Assembly (NCBI RefSeq): GCF_000758525.1
Contig: NZ_CP009241.1
Span: 1,736,001-1,800,000 of the forward strand
Direction: 5' to 3'
From: Paenibacillus sp. FSL H7-0357
GTDB lineage: Bacteria; Bacillota; Bacilli; Paenibacillales; Paenibacillaceae
DNA: 64,000 bases
Below are positions 1 to 7,132 of the stretch, in pieces. Position 1 is the stretch's first letter. The number at the start of each line of letters is the position of its first letter. Below the pieces are notes generated by a model. The model was given only the letters and a program-made list of their open reading frames with translations, did not search any database and had not been told where the DNA came from. The translations under genes and the position numbers were made by a program.

Positions 1-326
1 GCATCCTTGGCGGGTATGAGGACGGCACGTTCCGTCCGAACAACAAGATTACGCGCGAAGAGCAGGCGGTCATGGTTGTCCGCGCAATGACCTACGCGGG
101 CATCGACGCCAAAGTATCACAGGCGAAGCAGGATGAGATTTTGGCATCGTTCAAGGATGCCGGCCAGGCCGACTGGTCGAAGGCGGAGCTGGCTGCAGCC
201 ATTCAAGCCGGTCTGATAAAAGGCATGACAAGTGATACTTTGGAACCGGGCAGCGTTGCTACCCGTGCCCAATCAGCAACTATGCTGAAGCGCTTCTTAA
301 TCACAGCTAATTTCATCAACGAGTAA
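1..326 (+). CDS. SLH-domain protein, C-terminal end (partial)
   Basis: The reading frame is open from base 3 to the stop at 324-326 and runs off the left edge. The visible part holds the end of one S-layer homology domain (GGYEDGTFRPNNKITREEQA, then AVMVVRAM) and all of a second one (FKDAGQADWSKAELAAAIQAGLIKG, then TRAQSATMLKRFL). SLH domains attach secreted proteins to pyruvylated secondary cell-wall polymer, so this is the wall-anchoring tail of an exported protein. The N-terminal catalytic or structural part is outside the window, so its function is unknown. A hairpin follows at 395-426. Confidence 0.9.
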   Translation, partial: ILGGYEDGTFRPNNKITREEQAVMVVRAMTYAGIDAKVSQAKQDEILASFKDAGQADWSKAELAAAIQAGLIKGMTSDTLEPGSVATRAQSATMLKRFLITANFINE

Positions 327-527: not shown

Positions 528-581
528 TTGACATTAATTTAACCTGGCGTTAATACTCTGATGATTCTTTCGCCTTAAAAT
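528..581 (+). promoter_or_regulatory. Pho-box promoter, copy 1
   Basis: TTGACA (528), TTAACC (539), TTAATA (550) and the weaker ATGATT (561) follow each other at exactly 11-bp steps. This is the arrangement of PhoP boxes in Gram-positive bacteria (TT(A/T/C)A(C/T)A with about 5-bp spacers). A -10-like TAAAAT lies at 576-581, so the boxes would cover roughly -60 to -22 of the start, as in PhoP-activated promoters. The same geometry recurs at 1924-1977. PhoP control is inferred from sequence only. Confidence 0.7.
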
Positions 582-611
582 AGACATAAGAGCACCAATT
601 TAAAGCCGCAG

Positions 612-702
612 GGTAGGAGACGAGGAGAAAACCTTCTATGCGTCAAAGTGAATGCAGGTCCATACGGGTCTGATTGAACCTTGACGGATTGTAGGTTTTT
701 TT
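612..702 (+). promoter_or_regulatory. Putative GlpP-responsive antitermination leader, copy 1
   Basis: GGAGACGAGGAGAAAACC (616-633) is followed 60 bases later by AGGTTTTTTT (693-702). AAAACCT can pair with AGGTTTT to make a terminator ending in a T run. The leader at 2018-2101 has the same motif with AAAACCC/GGGTTTT, so the pairing is kept while the base changes. glpP lies between the two leaders. GlpP of Bacillus subtilis antiterminates glp leaders when bound to glycerol-3-phosphate; assignment to these RNAs is inference. No intact gene follows, only the SLH relic. Confidence 0.6.
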
Positions 703-719
703 GTGCTGCTCAGATTTCA

Positions 720-1262
720 CTACAACATTTGGGAGGGTACAGTCACAGATGCAAAAAGTGCGAAAAGCAAAAAGCTTGTGAACCTGGTGGACAATGCGAA
801 ACCTTCGTTGAGACCTATAAGGATGAGCGCAAGGGGATCACGCCTGAGCTTGTATTCCTGGATGGGTAGGAGCTGCTGCAGGTGGATGGCCGGATGAATG
901 CCCGGAAACCGGGTACGGGCTCCCACTGAAGCAGCGGCAGCTTGAGTTTTGGAGACGGAGCTCTCCGTCCGGATGCCGAGGTGATGTGAAGTGAGCAAGC
1001 GGTGGTGCTGGCCCCCGCCCTGGGGTATATCGGGCAGGACAGCGCTGCTGGCGGCACAGCTGCGGAATCACCGCCAGCCATGGAAGTTATTCCAGGATGC
1101 AGCAAGCATCTCATGGGCGCGCGAGGAATGGAACATGGTCATTCAAGCCGGATTAATGAAGGGTTTATCTCAAAAGCTGCTGATGCCGGAAATGAGCACA
1201 ACCGCTGCACCCACTCGGCCGTGCGGGTGCAGCGGTTCCTGAGCTTGGCGGGCTTCATTTAA
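720..1262 (+). pseudogene. Decayed SLH-domain gene
   Basis: No frame is open throughout, but SLH pieces survive in two frames. FQDAASISWAREEWNMVIQAGLMKG (frame read from 991) matches the second SLH domain of the 1-326 gene. It then shifts by one frame near 1218-1225 into AVRVQRFLSLAGFI, ending at the stop at 1260-1262 and matching that domain's C-terminal end. Coding-like stretches with internal stops run back to about 720. It was probably the gene once driven by the Pho/GlpP module at 528-702. What its N-terminal part did cannot be read. Confidence 0.65.
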
Positions 1263-1359: not shown

Positions 1360-1938
1360 GTGAAGAACGGACTGTTTGCTGGAAGCAGCGACCACAGAAT
1401 TATACCGGCAGTGCGCAAGGCTGAAGACTTGCAGAAGGCCTGCGACAGCGAATGGCCGATGATCTTTCTGCTGATTGGCGATCTGTTCACTGTGAAGCAA
1501 TATGTGAGGCAGGGCCTGGAAGCTGGCAAGAAAGTTTTCCTGCATGTAGATTTCATCGGCGGATTGGGGAGCGATCCGCTGGTGGTCAAATATATTGCCG
1601 AGAAGATTGGTCCGACTGGCATTATCTCAACCAAGAACCATATGGTCAAGCAGGCTAAGAAAAGCGGGCTTCTGGCGATCCAGCGCCTGTTCCTGATCGA
1701 CACCTCCGCGCTGGAGCACGGCATAAACAACGTGCGCCAGAATGAATCGGATGCGCTTGAAGTCATGCCGGGGCTGATTCCCAGGGTCATTACCGAGCTG
1801 AGCCGCAGTACCTCCCGCCCTATCATTGCCGGTGGCCTGATCAAGGAGCATCATGAGATTCAGGCAGCTCTCCAAGCAGGAGCGAGTGCAGTATCGATGG
1901 GCAACCCGGAGCTTTGGCGCAGTTTTACACAAACTTAA
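1360..1938 (+). CDS. glpP: Glycerol-3-phosphate-responsive antiterminator GlpP
   Basis: This 192-residue protein has the family's usual length and motifs: HVDFIGG (62-68), GIISTK (87-92), QRLFLID (108-114), EVMPGLIP (134-141) and PIIAGGLI (154-161). The fold is a TIM-barrel-like phosphate binder. In Bacillus subtilis GlpP binds glycerol-3-phosphate and then the 5' leaders of glp transcripts, preventing termination. The start is GTG with AAGGGGG about 10 bases upstream. Two leader-like RNAs (612-702, 2018-2101) flank it. Its stop codon lies inside the Pho box of the next operon. No glpF, glpK or glpD is next to it; the neighbours are an importer and a phosphatase. Confidence 0.92.
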   Translation: MKNGLFAGSSDHRIIPAVRKAEDLQKACDSEWPMIFLLIGDLFTVKQYVRQGLEAGKKVFLHVDFIGGLGSDPLVVKYIAEKIGPTGIISTKNHMVKQAKKSGLLAIQRLFLIDTSALEHGINNVRQNESDALEVMPGLIPRVITELSRSTSRPIIAGGLIKEHHEIQAALQAGASAVSMGNPELWRSFTQT

Positions 1939-1977
1939 CCTGGAGTTAATATCAGAATGACACGGTTTATTTATAGT
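1924..1977 (+). promoter_or_regulatory. Pho-box promoter, copy 2, of the ugp-like operon
   Basis: TTTACA (1924), TTAACC (1935), TTAATA (1946) and ATGACA (1957) are spaced exactly 11 bp apart. A -10 TATAGT lies at 1972-1977. The distance from the fourth hexamer to the -10 (15 bases) is identical to copy 1, and the middle hexamers TTAACC/TTAATA are the same. This strongly suggests PhoP activation of the downstream uptake operon under phosphate limitation. Confidence 0.78.
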
Positions 1978-2017
1978 GAAGAAGTAAGTTGAACGATTCA
2001 ATTTCATATCAAGGGTC

Positions 2018-2101
2018 GGAGACGAAGAGAAAACCCTTATGCAGCTCATATAGACGGCGGATTCATTATGCCTGATTACTGTGCTGGATATAGGGTTTTT
2101 T
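2018..2101 (+). promoter_or_regulatory. Putative GlpP-responsive antitermination leader, copy 2
   Basis: GGAGACGAAGAGAAAACCC (2018-2036) shares all but two positions with copy 1. AAAACCC(T) at 2030-2037 can pair with (A)GGGTTTTTT at 2092-2101, giving a terminator with a T run. This terminator lies between the Pho-type promoter and the AAGGAGG ribosome binding site (2116-2122) of the phosphatase gene. Transcription would therefore need both PhoP activation and GlpP antitermination. The RNA-protein pairing is inference from motif, pairing and glpP adjacency. Confidence 0.65.
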
Positions 2102-2133
2102 GGTTTGTTCCTATTAAGGAGGCTGCTTTCCTA

Positions 2134-2943
2134 TTGCAGGATGTGCTTGCGTACGAGACGTATTTTTTTGATTTGGACGGCACCATTTTTATTGGTGACC
2201 TGCTGCTGCCGGGAGTGAGTCAGACACTGCAGTATCTAAGGGAACATGGGAAACAGGTGTTGTTCCTGAGCAATACTACCATTCGGACCCGGGAAGAATG
2301 CCGGAATCGGCTAAGGCTGATGGGAATTGAAGCCCATACGGAGGAAGTCGTGACCGCGGCTTCGGTAACTGCGGCGTATTTCCGGGAAATGCAGGGAATG
2401 AACCACAGGCCTCAGGTGCTGGTGATTGGGGAGCAGGCGCTAAAATATGAGATGGCTGGCGGGGGGACGGTACTCACCGATGAACCCATGGAAGCCACGC
2501 ATGTGCTGGTCGGGATGGACCGCGAATTCGATTATGAGAAGCTTCACCGAGCGATGAAGGCTGTCCGAGCGGGCGCATATCTGATTGCCGCGAACCCTGA
2601 TCCGAATTGTCCGGTAGTGGGCGACTTGCTTCCCGATACCTGGGCCATGGTCAAGGCCATTGAGGCAGCCAGCTGCGGCACTGTACAAGAGATTATCGGC
2701 AAGCCATCCGCCTATTATGCGGAGAAGGTACTGGAGCAGAGCGGGAGTAGCCGGGAGAACTGTCTGATGGTCGGAGACCGGATGGATACGGATATCCAGT
2801 TTGGCCTGAGCCACGGCATCAGCACTGCATTGGTGTTAACCGGAGTGACCGCGAGAGAGGATCTGGAGCAATATTCTACCATGCCGGATCATATCTGGAC
2901 CTCAATGTCCGAGATGCTGCAGGATCATTTACGCCTGTCCTGA
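2134..2943 (+). CDS. HAD-IIA (NagD/AraL-like) phosphatase
   Basis: This 269-residue protein carries the HAD motifs in order: DLDGT (13-17, two catalytic aspartates), SNTT (46-49), K190 in IIGKPS, and GDRMDTD (214-220, Mg2+ binding). The C2 cap between motifs II and III is typical of NagD, AraL and glycerol-phosphate phosphatases. I chose TTG at 2134, 11 bases after AAGGAGG, because an in-frame ATG at 2068 lies inside the leader terminator. It is the first gene of the operon with a UgpB-type importer, so dephosphorylation of imported glycerol phosphate, releasing phosphate and glycerol, is the likely role. The substrate is inferred, not read from sequence. Confidence 0.85.
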   Translation: MQDVLAYETYFFDLDGTIFIGDLLLPGVSQTLQYLREHGKQVLFLSNTTIRTREECRNRLRLMGIEAHTEEVVTAASVTAAYFREMQGMNHRPQVLVIGEQALKYEMAGGGTVLTDEPMEATHVLVGMDREFDYEKLHRAMKAVRAGAYLIAANPDPNCPVVGDLLPDTWAMVKAIEAASCGTVQEIIGKPSAYYAEKVLEQSGSSRENCLMVGDRMDTDIQFGLSHGISTALVLTGVTAREDLEQYSTMPDHIWTSMSEMLQDHLRLS

Positions 2944-3074
2944 TTATAGCGGAGCTGAACCACAGGATTACAGAGGGGATTCCCATGCTTGCCAGAGTAA
3001 GAGGATCAGCCGCTCGCGGAGGGTTGCCGATCTTTCTGCTACTTATGAATAGATAAATGGAGGAGATTACAGGG

Positions 3075-4442
3075 ATGCGTAAAGTAAATGTAATGGTTAT
3101 GGCAGCTGCACTAGGGATGTCGGTGTTGGCAGGCTGCGGCAACAACACAAACACAAACTCGAACACAAACAACAATAACGCTGCTGGCAATGGCAGCGGC
3201 ACCGGGGCTGGTGAAGCCGCAGCCGCTCCGGCGGATAACGGAACCAAGACGGAACTGACTTACTATTACCCGATTGCTGTCGGAGGACCGCTGACGGCTA
3301 CCATTGAAGCCATGACTGCAGATTTTATGAAGGAGAATCCGGATATTGTGGTTAAGCCGGTATACACCGGCAGCTATGCCGATACGGCGGTCAAGACCCA
3401 AGCCGGAGTCCAGTCGAAGCAGCCGCCCGATGTAGCGGTATTGCAGTCCACGGAGCTCTTCAGCCTGCTGGATATGGATGCGATTATTCCGCTGGACGAG
3501 TTCATAGCGCAGGAGGGCGGAGACACTTATTTATCTGACTTCTATCCCGCTTTTATGGAGAATTCCCAGACAGAGGGCAAAACCTACAGTATTCCGTTCC
3601 AGCGCAGTACCATAGTTCTGTATTACAACAAGGATATGTTCAAGGCCGCCGGACTGGACCCGGAGAAGCCGCCTGCAACCTGGGCAGAGATGCAGGAATA
3701 TGCGGTCAAGCTGGCCGGTGACGGCAAGTGGGGGCTGGAGATTCCGGTGACCGGCTACGCCTATTGGATGCTTCAGACCTTCGCGTTGCAGAACGGCAAC
3801 AATCTGATGACTCCTGACGGCAAAAAAGTAATGTTCAACACTCCGGAGAATATCGAGGGTCTCCAGTATTGGGTAGATCTGGCGGCGAAGCACAAGGCTA
3901 TGCCTGGCGGCGTAACCGATTGGAGCACAGTGCCTTCCGACTTCCTGGAAGGAAAAACTGCGATGATGTACCATACGACCGGCAACCTGACCAATGTCAA
4001 GAAAAATGCGGCGTTTGATTTCGGCGTCAGCTTCCTGCCGGCGCAGAAGCAATATGGCAGTCCTACCGGCGGCGGAAATTTCTATATTTTCAAGGATATC
4101 GACAAAAAGAAGCAGGAAGCAGCCTGGAAATTCGTCAAGTTCATGACTGAAACCGAACGTGCGGCGCAGTGGAGTATCGATACCGGTTATGTGGCAGTGA
4201 AAAAATCGGCATATGAAACTGAACAGATGAAGGCTTATGCTGCTGAGTTCCCGGCTGCGCTGATTGCCCGTGACCAGTTGGAATATGCATCCGCCGAATT
4301 GTCGACCCACAACAACGGCAGAATTGTCAAAATCCTGAGTGACTCCGTCCAGGCTGCGCTCACTAATGAGCTGACACCGGCGGAAGCCTTGCAGAAAGCG
4401 CAGGATGGTGCGGACCAGGCACTGGCTTCTTTTAATAAATAA
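3075..4442 (+). CDS. ugpB: UgpB-like ABC substrate-binding lipoprotein
   Basis: This 455-residue lipoprotein has signal peptide MRKVNVMVMAAALGMSVLAG and lipobox cysteine C21. The Gly/Asn/Ala-rich linker after it is common in Paenibacillus lipoproteins. The body follows E. coli UgpB closely around SIPFQRSTIVLYYNKDMFKA, then GLDPEKPPATWAEM, which points to sn-glycerol-3-phosphate or glycerophosphodiesters as ligand. The start is ATG 3075 after GGAGGA; the upstream ATG at 3057 overlaps that site. The two permeases follow directly. No ATPase is in the operon, so a shared MsmX-type ATPase encoded elsewhere is expected. Confidence 0.85.
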   Translation: MRKVNVMVMAAALGMSVLAGCGNNTNTNSNTNNNNAAGNGSGTGAGEAAAAPADNGTKTELTYYYPIAVGGPLTATIEAMTADFMKENPDIVVKPVYTGSYADTAVKTQAGVQSKQPPDVAVLQSTELFSLLDMDAIIPLDEFIAQEGGDTYLSDFYPAFMENSQTEGKTYSIPFQRSTIVLYYNKDMFKAAGLDPEKPPATWAEMQEYAVKLAGDGKWGLEIPVTGYAYWMLQTFALQNGNNLMTPDGKKVMFNTPENIEGLQYWVDLAAKHKAMPGGVTDWSTVPSDFLEGKTAMMYHTTGNLTNVKKNAAFDFGVSFLPAQKQYGSPTGGGNFYIFKDIDKKKQEAAWKFVKFMTETERAAQWSIDTGYVAVKKSAYETEQMKAYAAEFPAALIARDQLEYASAELSTHNNGRIVKILSDSVQAALTNELTPAEALQKAQDGADQALASFNK

Positions 4443-4443
4443 G

Positions 4444-5322
4444 ATGAATACCAGTCTGAGAAGAAATGGGTTCGCCTGGCTGTTGTTGCTGCCCTCACTG
4501 TTGTTTCTGCTGCTATTTACATTCTATCCGATCGCGCTGACGCTGCGGCTGAGCCTGTTCCAGGCGGATTTGTCCACGCCGGAGCCAGTCTTTGCGGGTC
4601 TGGCCAATTACCGCACCATGTTTCAAGACGAGGTCTTCCGCAAGGTTATGGTGAACAATGCGCTGTTTGCGCTGGGGACGGTTCCACTCGGAATCGCTCT
4701 GGCGCTTTTGATGGCAGTTTTCGCCAACAAGGCGCTGCATGGCAGAGGTTTTATGCGTTCTGCATTCTTTTATCCGACTCTGATCCCCATGATTGCAGCA
4801 GCTAACATTTGGCTTTTTATTTATACACCGGAATATGGATTTATGAGCAGGCTGCTGTCCTGGTTCGGTGTGAACGATATCAATTGGCTGGGCACACCAG
4901 GGCTGGTGATGTGGGCGATGATCCTGATGATCATTTGGAAGGAGGCGGGATTCTTTATGATTTTTTACCTCGCCGGTCTGCAAAATATCTCGAAAGAGCT
5001 GTATGAAGCCGCACATGTCGATGGGGTGGGCCGGTTCACCGTGTTCCGCAAAATCACTTTCCCGCTGCTGATGCCGACTACGCTGTTCGTAAGTATTGTT
5101 GCGCTCACCAACGCCTACAAGCTTGTCGACCACCTGATGATCATGACCCGGGGAGGGCCCAACAACTCCAGCAATCTGCTGCTCTATTACATTTATGAAA
5201 CAGCATTCAGCTTTTGGGATCAGGGAATGGCGTCTGCGCTGACGGTCGTTATGATTGCAGTATTGCTGCTGATTGCGGCTGTGCAGTTCTTTGGCCTGGA
5301 TCGAAGAATTCACTATAACTAA
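4444..5322 (+). CDS. ugpA: UgpA-like ABC permease
   Basis: This 292-residue membrane protein with about six TM segments belongs to the MalF/UgpA class. It has the EAA loop for ATPase contact in KELYEAAHVDGVGRFTVFRK, followed by ITFPLLMPTT. I placed the start at ATG 4444, one base after the stop of the binding protein, because the family N-terminus is short. The ribosome binding site is poor, so translational coupling is likely. An upstream in-frame start at 4405 would overlap the lipoprotein gene. Confidence 0.88.
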   Translation: MNTSLRRNGFAWLLLLPSLLFLLLFTFYPIALTLRLSLFQADLSTPEPVFAGLANYRTMFQDEVFRKVMVNNALFALGTVPLGIALALLMAVFANKALHGRGFMRSAFFYPTLIPMIAAANIWLFIYTPEYGFMSRLLSWFGVNDINWLGTPGLVMWAMILMIIWKEAGFFMIFYLAGLQNISKELYEAAHVDGVGRFTVFRKITFPLLMPTTLFVSIVALTNAYKLVDHLMIMTRGGPNNSSNLLLYYIYETAFSFWDQGMASALTVVMIAVLLLIAAVQFFGLDRRIHYN

Positions 5323-5354
5323 ATCTGCATGGCTGCCGGAAGGAGGGCAATTCT

Positions 5355-6170
5355 ATGAAAACTAAATTTACATCTAAGCTCGGAAATATACTGATGCTGG
5401 CCCTCGCGGCCGTCTGGATGATCCCGCTGCTCTGGATGACGGTGACGGCGTTTCGTCCCCGTCATGCAGCACTGTCGAGCCTGTTCTCGCTGGACTTCAC
5501 TTTGAGCAACTTCGCTACAGTCTGGTCTGCCGCGCCATTTTCCACTTATTATCTCAACACGATTCTGATTGTGGTGTGTGTGTTTGCTGTGCAGATGCTG
5601 ACGGCCAGCATGGCTGCTTTTGCTTTTGCACGTGTAACCTTTGCCGGCAGCAGCATAGTGTTCCTGTTGTTTCTGGTGCAGATTATGATTCCCCCCGATG
5701 TGCTGATCTTCCCCAACTACAACGTCCTGAAGCAGCTGTCGCTGCTCGACACCAAGTTAGGCATTATGCTGCCGTTTCTGGCTTCGGCGTTCGGAATTTT
5801 TCTGCTGCGCCAGGTATTTAAGACGATCCCTGCCGAGCTGGAAGAGGCGGCGCTGATCGAGGGCTGCAGCCAATGGCAGGTCCTGTGGAAAATTTATTTC
5901 CCGCTGGCCCGGCCCACCTATGTGGCCTTCGCACTCGTCTCGATCAGCTATCAGTGGAATAACTTTCTTTGGCCGCTGATTATCACCAATTCGGTGGAGA
6001 ACCGGCCGCTTACGGTGGGGTTGTCGATCTTTGCCCAATCATTCGAGATTGGGGTGCAGTGGACGGAAGTCAGCGCGGCTACCCTGCTGGTGATCACCCC
6101 GCTGCTGCTGATCTTCCTAGTGTTCCAGCGCCAGTTCATTGAGAGCTTCATGCATTCCGGCATTAAATAG
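5355..6170 (+). CDS. ugpE: UgpE-like ABC permease
   Basis: This 271-residue, six-TM permease of the MalG/UgpE class has the EAA motif in AELEEAALIEGCSQWQVLWK followed by IYFPLARPT. The C-terminal QRQFIESFMHSGIK is a typical MalG-type tail. It starts at ATG 5355 with AAGGAGGG about 9 bases upstream. With the preceding gene it forms the membrane channel of the glycerol-phosphate importer. Confidence 0.88.
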   Translation: MKTKFTSKLGNILMLALAAVWMIPLLWMTVTAFRPRHAALSSLFSLDFTLSNFATVWSAAPFSTYYLNTILIVVCVFAVQMLTASMAAFAFARVTFAGSSIVFLLFLVQIMIPPDVLIFPNYNVLKQLSLLDTKLGIMLPFLASAFGIFLLRQVFKTIPAELEEAALIEGCSQWQVLWKIYFPLARPTYVAFALVSISYQWNNFLWPLIITNSVENRPLTVGLSIFAQSFEIGVQWTEVSAATLLVITPLLLIFLVFQRQFIESFMHSGIK

Positions 6171-6193
6171 AACTGTTCAAGGAGGAGTTCAGA

Positions 6194-7132
6194 TTGACGG
6201 CATTACAGAACTGCGCAGTATCTACTTATGTCTATATCGGCCGTCCACTGGCTGAAGCTATTGAATTACTAACCGCCGAGGGCTGGAAGCACATTGAGAT
6301 TATGTGCGAAGGCAGGCACGTGGAGCTGCTGGAATGGACGGCAGGCCAGTTGGCTTCACTGGCACGCAAAGGCAAGGACCTTGGCATCCGGTGGAGCATC
6401 CATGCACCAATTACCGGCTGCAATCCGGCAGCAGCGGACGAGCAGCAGCGTGCGGAGGCGGAAACGCTGCTGCTGGATACGCTGCGTGTTGCAGAAGTGC
6501 TGGAATGCAGCTATGTGGTGCTGCATGCGGGAGAGCTGTCTGCTGTGGACACTGAGGAAACAGGAGCGGAACCCGGGGGGGGCGCGCTTCTGGAGGAAGC
6601 ACAGGCCACTGCAGGTGCTGGAGCGGCTTCCGCCGGTGCACGGGAAGCCGCCAAAGCGCGGGTGGTGCGTTTCCTCCAGCGGATACTGACGGAGACCGCC
6701 GGCTCTGCGGCAGTTATCGCGCTGGAGAATGTTCCCCCGTACCCCGGGCTGCTGGGGACGGAGGTCACAGAGCTGCTGGAGCTGGCCGCGCGGGTGAATT
6801 CCTCTCGCATAGGTCTGGTGTTCGACAGCGGCCATGCCCTGATGGCAGGCAAAGACCGCTGCCTGTTGATGATGCAGCAGGCCATGCCCCGCGCGGTCGC
6901 GCTGCATCTCAGCGACAATGCTGCAGAGCAGGATGAGCACCTGGGACTTGGCCAAGGCAAGCTGCCGCTGGAGGCGATGCTCGCCGGGCTGGCGGCAGGC
7001 GGATTCAAGGGTGCCTGGGTGCTTGAGTTGCGGCATCCCAGAGATCTGCTGCCGTCCGCAGCCAAACTTCACCATTTACGGAAGCAATACCTGGCTGTCT
7101 ATGGCATTGAACCTGTCTCGGGAATAAGGTAG
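6194..7132 (+). CDS. Xylose-isomerase-like TIM-barrel protein
   Basis: This 312-residue protein belongs to the sugar phosphate isomerase/epimerase or AP-endonuclease-2 superfamily. Metal-site signatures are SIHAPITGC, VVLHAGE, ALENVPPYPG, FDSGHAL and ALHLSDN. The start is TTG 6194 after a strong GGAGGAG. An Ala/Gly/Glu-rich low-complexity stretch (about residues 115-155) is inserted between strands and is unusual for the fold. It is the last gene of the ugp-like operon, 23 bases after ugpE. A role in glycerol-phosphate or polyol-phosphate metabolism is suggested by position only; the reaction cannot be named. Confidence 0.8.
   Translation: MTALQNCAVSTYVYIGRPLAEAIELLTAEGWKHIEIMCEGRHVELLEWTAGQLASLARKGKDLGIRWSIHAPITGCNPAAADEQQRAEAETLLLDTLRVAEVLECSYVVLHAGELSAVDTEETGAEPGGGALLEEAQATAGAGAASAGAREAAKARVVRFLQRILTETAGSAAVIALENVPPYPGLLGTEVTELLELAARVNSSRIGLVFDSGHALMAGKDRCLLMMQQAMPRAVALHLSDNAAEQDEHLGLGQGKLPLEAMLAGLAAGGFKGAWVLELRHPRDLLPSAAKLHHLRKQYLAVYGIEPVSGIR

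Follow-up and report, generated by a model that had tools for sequence, protein, structure and literature searches.

A Pho-type promoter and a GlpP-type terminator leader in series ahead of a Ugp-like importer operon in Paenibacillus

We analysed a 64-kb stretch of the 7.69-Mb genome of Paenibacillus sp. FSL H7-0357 (the window, G000:C1:1736001-1800000), in which an operon for a HAD-IIA phosphatase, a Ugp-like importer and a TIM-barrel protein lies behind glpP, the gene for the glycerol-3-phosphate responsive antiterminator (Table 1). This glpP is the sole copy in the genome and its product is 95% identical to GlpP of P. jilunlii; its 3' end falls within the operon promoter, so that its last codons and stop overlap Pho boxes 1 and 2. 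An earlier note, made from the sequence alone, had placed glpP directly upstream of the promoter, as it is, and had proposed that a Pho-type promoter and a GlpP-type leader subject the operon to both PhoP and GlpP. Our comparisons support serial PhoP/GlpP control well at the level of sequence, and we think it likely that this is a phosphate-scavenging operon under two serial locks, PhoP and then GlpP. The note's range, 1924-7132, had the operon genes right apart from small start corrections (the phosphatase start is read as TTG at 2134, behind AAGGAGG, and the ugpB and ugpA starts as ATG at 3075 and 4444). It left out glpP and a second, paralogous promoter and leader at 528-702, and it missed the repeated use described below.

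Table 1 Features of the locus in window coordinates
Feature	Position	Strand	Basis or remark
Four PhoP-type hexamers: TTTACA 1924, TTAACC 1935, TTAATA 1946, ATGACA 1957	1924..1962	+	exact 11-bp period
-10 hexamer TATAGT	1972..1977	+	exactly 9 nt behind last Pho box
Antiterminator arm 1, AAGGGT	2011..2016	+	complementary to arm 2; arms covary
Proposed GlpP site, GGAGACGAAGAGAAAACC	2018..2035	+	found as well in glpP-adjacent leaders of glpF, glpD and glpT
Antiterminator arm 2, ACCCTT, also 5' part of terminator stem	2033..2038	+	complementarity; arm covariation
Intrinsic terminator with T run	2028..2101	+	fold and covariation
glpP, glycerol-3-phosphate responsive antiterminator	1360..1938	+	PF04309 (G3P_antiterm), E 1.2e-62
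HAD-IIA phosphatase	2134..2943	+	TIGR01460 above cut-off; PDB relatives include NagD and glycerol-3-phosphate phosphatases
UgpB-like substrate-binding lipoprotein	3075..4442	+	SBP_bac_8; top PDB match E. coli UgpB 4aq4, E 1.3e-41
UgpA-like permease	4444..5322	+	profile matches, below equivalog cut-off
UgpE-like permease	5355..6170	+	profile matches, below equivalog cut-off
AP_endonuc_2 TIM-barrel protein, weakly CbiR-phosphodiesterase-like	6194..7132	+	PF01261; NF041277 61 bits, cut-off 105
Module 1 promoter: Pho boxes 528, 539, 550, 561; -10 TAAAAT 576-581	528..581	+	24/30, 0/1,000 shuffles (L112)
Module 1 GlpP-type leader and terminator	610..702	+	R1 E 5.5e-14 (itself an R1 building sequence); fold z -2.40
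Decayed surface glycerophosphodiesterase gene	748..1262	+	blastn against P. jilunlii region
3' end of intact 1778-aa GDPD and SLH surface protein	1..326	+	own GlpP-type leader 5.2 kb before window

The four hexamers and the -10 described in the note are present. Scored against the PhoP box consensus TT(A/T/C)A(C/T)A, the hexamers reach 21 of 24, the highest four-box score on either strand of the window. Together with the 9-nt gap and the -10 they reach a joint score of 26 of 30 (L099); dinucleotide shuffles averaged 17.5 and 0 of 1,000 reached 26. The note had named an absence of Pho-box or leader conservation as evidence against its reading; Pho boxes, 9-nt gap, -10 and leader are kept at all nine close orthologous operons, in which 13 of 18 positions of boxes 2-4 are invariant, as against 1 of 10 spacer positions. 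Across 17 modules (nine ugp, seven diesterase and one further leader of the window's genome), a box spacing of 11 averages 19.8 whereas other spacings from 7 to 15 reach at most 16.4, and a gap of 9 yields the best mean -10 match among gaps of 4-17. The -10 is TATAGT in all nine ugp modules and TAAAGT or TAAAAT in all seven diesterase modules. In the same genome, the phoP-like and pstB promoters show the identical geometry of last box, 9 nt and -10 (TATGAT/TATCAT). PstB scores above its family cut-off, a PhoU domain adjoins pstB, and an OmpR-type regulator and a kinase with HAMP, PAS and sCache domains adjoin pstB-phoU.

Behind the promoter lies a leader (2011-2101) in which the proposed GlpP site, a special case of the general form GGAGA-N3-RGAGA-CC, is flanked by two complementary arms and runs into an intrinsic terminator. 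The RNA of 2008-2101 folds at -27.2 kcal/mol with a z score of -2.34 (3 of 200 shuffles as stable), and that of 2018-2101 alone with a z score of -3.44 (0 of 200). Compensatory double changes occur at 8 of 21 terminator pairs in 11 leader sequences. The arms also covary: 26 leaders, hand-picked as representatives, gave an observed 294 against 246.4 ± 9.3 for shuffled partners (0 of 100,000; the statistic ignores relatedness), and an earlier set of 21 leaders gave 244 against 195.6 ± 8.3 (0 of 2,000 shuffles). Arm pairs include AAGGGT/ACCCTT, TGTG/CACA, GGTT/AACC, TAATGG/CCATTA and GGTC/GACC; the arms form just three pairs in L084, L149 and L151 and lie in another register in L014. Pairing was judged by this shuffle test, since a mixed 22-sequence alignment of leader types misplaced arm 2 and was therefore not folded. 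Since arm 2 doubles as the 5' segment of the terminator, the small hairpin of the two arms cannot form together with it. On its own the hairpin is weak (-4.5 kcal/mol as drawn) and so would need GlpP.

Fold and covariation bear out the note's description of a terminator leader of the GlpP type, as does its family: the leader is of one kind with those of glpF, glpD and glpT adjoining glpP in other Bacilli. Among 24 stretches behind glpP at other loci, with genes recognised by eye, the site pattern fits 8 of 11 glpF, both glpD and the single glpT stretches as well as L039. Similar, deviant sites occur in glpF stretches L065, L079 and L080 and in three others (L040-L042), and the pattern was not seen in four glpK stretches, L091 or L066. 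The deviant leaders of L040-L042, again judged by eye, stand behind glpP and before a HAD or phosphodiesterase-like gene, that is, phosphate-ester and not glycerol genes. At six loci (L033-L038) glpP is followed by a GlpP-type leader and then a HAD phosphatase, with a GDPD-like frame following within the stretch in four; no Pho boxes were found in the three of these loci that we tested, and the leader looks like an internal conditional terminator within a single operon.

Other accounts of the leader were considered. No Rfam family matched at gathering scores over the window, and 480-2200 gave two sub-threshold matches, one of which, at 21.5 bits where 45 would be needed, sets a snoRNA family over the leader of module 1. 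We dropped a riboswitch explanation on the lack of a match above threshold and took the snoRNA-family match as chance. The exact site word proved of little use as a search term: it occurs at 5 sites in 4 of 148 family genomes, and the three outside our genome look coding and without terminator by eye. The general site pattern has 50 matches in the window's genome against 36 for a reversed control, and further GlpP leaders there are possible.

The note had proposed searching for the module before ugpB homologues. UgpB relatives (E <= 1e-60) gave 29 matches in 27 of 100 genus genomes, of which 26 are orthologous ugp loci spanning 53-100% identity; the other three comprise the fragment L152, a relative at 34% identity (L153) and a locus of a second kind in G149 (L155). 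Nine loci at 78-100% identity have the full promoter and leader. In G275 (UgpB 53%), Pho boxes and leader stand ahead of HAD-ugpB and a surface diesterase follows ugpE. A leader model, R1, built from 11 leaders of these operons (ugp-1) and of diesterase genes, was run on the same 100 genomes and gave strong matches (E <= 5.2e-8) in nine, to the ugp leader in all nine and to a diesterase leader in seven. Ten more genomes had weak matches only (E 0.002-0.0074), four of them to glpP-HAD-GDPD leaders and one before glpP in G275; R1 also matches the G275 operon leader (E 0.029). The weak match before glpP (G275:C1:682183-682257, E 0.004) ends about 135 bp ahead of the GlpP match and would mean that GlpP controls its own gene there. 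A separate related-locus search yielded P. jilunlii and, apart from it, a single distant locus in Clostridia.

A second UgpB type (ugp-2), 30-34% identical, lies behind glpP and a leader in nine of nine loci examined, chosen as the nine GlpP matches that begin at position 2 of the model; two of them, L039 and L155, were already known when the other seven were added. R1, built without ugp-2 leaders, detects the leader in all nine (10 sources, one locus twice; E 6.7e-5 to 0.021). By eye, an ATP-binding cassette (ABC) ATPase-like frame follows UgpB in these loci.

We applied a joint test of boxes, 9-nt gap and -10 within a fixed 120-nt stretch, with 1,000 shuffles per module. Scores reached p <= 0.01 in 25 of 30 leader-bearing modules (9/9 ugp-1, 7/7 diesterase-B, G275 and 8/9 ugp-2), many of them closely related and hence not 25 independent events. 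Control leaders, 11 before glpF, glpD or glpT and three of the six glpP-HAD-GDPD type, gave 0 of 14 at p <= 0.01 and 3 of 14 at p <= 0.05, and the phoP-like promoter, a positive control, passed (0 of 1,000). Conservation in all nine close orthologs and the absence of the promoter geometry from control leaders thus support both regulatory elements and, as far as sequence goes, the dual PhoP/GlpP reading of the operon.

Several observations weigh against that reading. Box 1 of the operon is weak: it is TTTGCA, off consensus, in the eight other orthologs and overlaps glpP coding sequence. Two of the four boxes at the phoP-like promoter are poor, the PhoP-like regulator scores 198 bits against an NCBIfam PhoB cut-off of 296, and pstB, the other positive control, fails the joint test (p 0.136) on account of a -10 that runs into the annotated start. 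Taken alone, a three-hexamer consensus is no commoner across the genome (20 matches) than its reversed form (23), so the Pho case rests on position, conservation and geometry. Five of the 30 modules miss p <= 0.01: L160 at p 0.023, the one whose leader stands ahead of the intact diesterase outside the window at p 0.12, and L149-L151 at p 0.85-0.98, where the promoter looks ordinary to the eye. The note's expectation for ugpB homologues does not hold throughout: the three loci L149-L151 (57%) have a leader without Pho geometry, which R1 did not detect, and 13 of the 26 orthologous loci (59-68%, in 12 genomes) lack a leader in the 1.5 kb or so upstream, as checked with a wider pattern and with R1, which matched none of them in the same search; nor did any of the 13 show a Pho score above 18. 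A simple terminator scan, with loops of 3-8 nt only, lists no terminator in 450-2250, because it does not allow the long interrupted stem. The main text of two Paenibacillus SBR5 transcriptome papers mentions neither ugp nor glpP.

All 13 genomes in which the ugp-1-type operon bears a leader have a GlpP match, as do 4 of the 12 in which it does not. Within the 57% group, G194 and G156 have a glpP some 3.6 kb beyond ugpB, where G296 has two partial GlpP matches. Eleven leaderless loci (L138-L147, L154) have in common a gene whose product of about 290-310 aa ends in NFRHY..; in ten it immediately precedes ugpB and in L147 it lies about 0.4 kb upstream of it. This gene possibly stands in place of the phosphatase.

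L149-L151 would suit control by GlpP alone, from a vegetative promoter (-35 TTTACA 1924, 17 nt, -10 TAATAT 1947) whose Pho-like repeats are incidental or come from glpP coding. A simple scan finds that TTTACA/TAATAT pair with 9 of 12 matches and, in module 1, TTGACA-18-AATACT with 10 of 12, but its 3 sites compare with 2.2 expected from shuffling. Such a promoter would not account for box 4, for the unchanging TATAGT or for the constant 9-nt gap seen in all nine orthologs, and the matching geometry at the phoP-like gene and pstB also speaks for a Pho element; we regard GlpP-only control as improbable. The first lock might instead answer to a signal other than phosphate, if another OmpR-type regulator (WalR- or ResD-like) read the 11-bp repeats. 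Regulators related to PhoP bind direct repeats of similar period, and it is adjacency to pstB-phoU and a PAS/HAMP kinase, rather than a score above a family cut-off, that underlies the PhoP assignment. Comparable sites, however, precede the phoP-like gene and pstB of the same genome, the targets look made for release or import of phosphate compounds, and the operon hexamers fit TTAACA rather than a TGT-type WalR site. This alternative seems to us very improbable, a little more so than control by GlpP alone, and PhoP remains the regulator that we favour.

The note's phosphatase holds up (TIGR01460); its importer does so in part. E. coli UgpB (4aq4) is the closest solved relative of the binding protein, yet UgpB, UgpA and UgpE score 169, 120.6 and 129.9 bits against NCBIfam equivalog cut-offs of 411, 335 and 297, and none passes. 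The Ugp label is thus used here for a protein set that, judged from sequence, may work like Ugp. No ATPase or ugpC was found among the scanned operon genes of 1924-7132, and the operon has no ugpQ either; that the TIM-barrel protein, through its weak CbiR likeness, might supply a UgpQ-like step is a guess. These scores, and a TIM-barrel protein without an assigned role, would also suit an importer for another substrate, a different phosphorylated or a plain sugar, with GlpP control only indirect. Against this stand E. coli UgpB as the best solved relative, the surface glycerophosphodiesterase genes in the locus, the diesterase behind ugpE in G275 and the adjacency of GlpP to the operon. A substrate other than glycerol-3-phosphate or its diesters is, in our view, unlikely.

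The region as a whole holds two surface diesterase genes, one of them broken, together with glpP and the importer operon, and GlpP-type leaders precede both diesterases and the importer. The leader of the intact 1778-aa protein matches R1 at E 2.2e-13 and is likewise one of the sequences from which R1 was built. The decayed gene behind module 1 aligns by blastn in three blocks with 84-89% identity to a P. jilunlii stretch; two large gaps interrupt the alignment, and each of the three frames contains stops. Over 475-1400 (compared with L012:1811-8041) two internal stretches of the diesterase gene are gone and its frame is no longer open, while promoter and leader persist. The P. jilunlii counterpart of module 1 stands before an intact gene, whose 1949-aa product has GDPD, CBM9 and SLH domains (L012:2056-7905). 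Five other genomes with the second leader (G149, G172, G175, G178, G182) have an open frame behind it with 68-89% identity to the N-terminal 470-500 residues; the GDPD part lies beyond the sequence stretch compared there.

The elements, their order, conservation and family can be read from the sequences; from them we infer the following course. Under phosphate starvation, phosphorylated PhoP would bind the boxes at 1924-1962 and RNA polymerase would start from the -10 at 1972. By default the new transcript would stop at the terminator of 2028-2101. At high intracellular glycerol-3-phosphate, GlpP loaded with it would hold the GGAGA-N3-RGAGA element (2018-2035) and favour the small hairpin 2011-2016/2033-2038, thereby blocking the terminator. 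The series arrangement of promoter and leader would amount to AND logic. Read-through would yield the phosphatase, the importer and the TIM-barrel protein; diesters cut outside or imported would provide glycerol-3-phosphate in the cell, from which the HAD enzyme would free phosphate. Import of the inducer would give positive feedback, and its drainage by the phosphatase negative feedback. An identical pair of locks would act ahead of cell-surface glycerophosphodiesterase genes in the locus and its relatives.

Compared with the Bacillus subtilis GlpP regulon, the locus shares a glpP-linked leader with a GGAGA-N3-RGAGA site and a conditional terminator, as seen in Bacilli loci. It differs in its targets, a Ugp-like ABC importer and SLH-anchored diesterases, and in bearing Pho boxes where Bacilli glpF promoters have a sequence that, by eye, we take to be cre-like. 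Taken singly, GlpP antitermination, PhoP promoters and ugp under Pho control are all known. The available text of two sources describes GlpP bound to glycerol-3-phosphate as disrupting the terminators of glpD, glpFK and glpTQ in B. subtilis (PMC9604022) and as binding the antiterminator (PMC7430163), and the mutually exclusive hairpin and terminator of our leader fit the action reported in those passages. For a diesterase there is precedent for dual control, since passages of PMC6232261 have B. subtilis GlpQ raised in phosphate limitation through PhoPR and those of PMC9604022 list glpQ, with glpT, among GlpP targets; that case is a diesterase and not a Ugp importer, and its two controls are reported separately in these passages. 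The note's claim that a GlpP-controlled ugp is new stands to the extent that we found no description of one, or of a PhoP-GlpP pair in Paenibacillus, in the open-licence literature; the dual PhoP/GlpP control of glpQ that follows from the above tempers it. The note was right that E. coli ugp is under Pho control: in the text available from PMC4415409 it has two promoters, PhoB-dependent (phosphate) and CRP-dependent (carbon starvation), and thus resembles our operon in joining Pho control of a Ugp importer to a second, carbon-linked input. Unlike ugpBAECQ, the Paenibacillus operon lacks ugpC and ugpQ, and its second input would be substrate-specific and bring about antitermination of the transcript that the first has started, so that the outcome would be AND where E. 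coli would give OR. For P. sonchi, PMC7793946 reports a rise of a gene called glpQ at 6 and 24 h following transfer to low phosphate, a correspondence in name.

The recurrence of promoter and leader suggests a broader proposal, made tentatively and with somewhat less than even confidence: that Pho promoter and GlpP leader form a portable double-lock module before at least three kinds of scavenging gene (ugp-1, ugp-2 and surface glycerophosphodiesterases), and that GlpP in the window's genome serves phosphate scavenging only and no longer glycerol catabolism. The second part is suggested by two findings: the only R1 matches in that genome, with a model tuned to this leader type, are the locus's three leaders, and its three glpK-like loci show no GlpP leader pattern. 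One glycerol kinase homolog of that genome (G000:C1:5237343-5238756; L124, L125) is in two overlapping halves in different frames, and may be broken or reflect a sequence error; another (L123) scores barely above its family cut-off.

If true, serial control of this operon would be a clean natural case of starvation and substrate signals combined on one transcript, in which the cell would bear the cost of surface enzymes and importers only if it needed phosphate and had the right source of it at hand. With it, the GlpP regulon of soil bacteria would reach beyond glycerol use into phosphate scavenging. Both window leaders match no Rfam family at threshold, and the comparisons supply a covariation-backed three-arm model of GlpP leaders and an account, open to test, of how plant-associated Paenibacillus use organophosphates.

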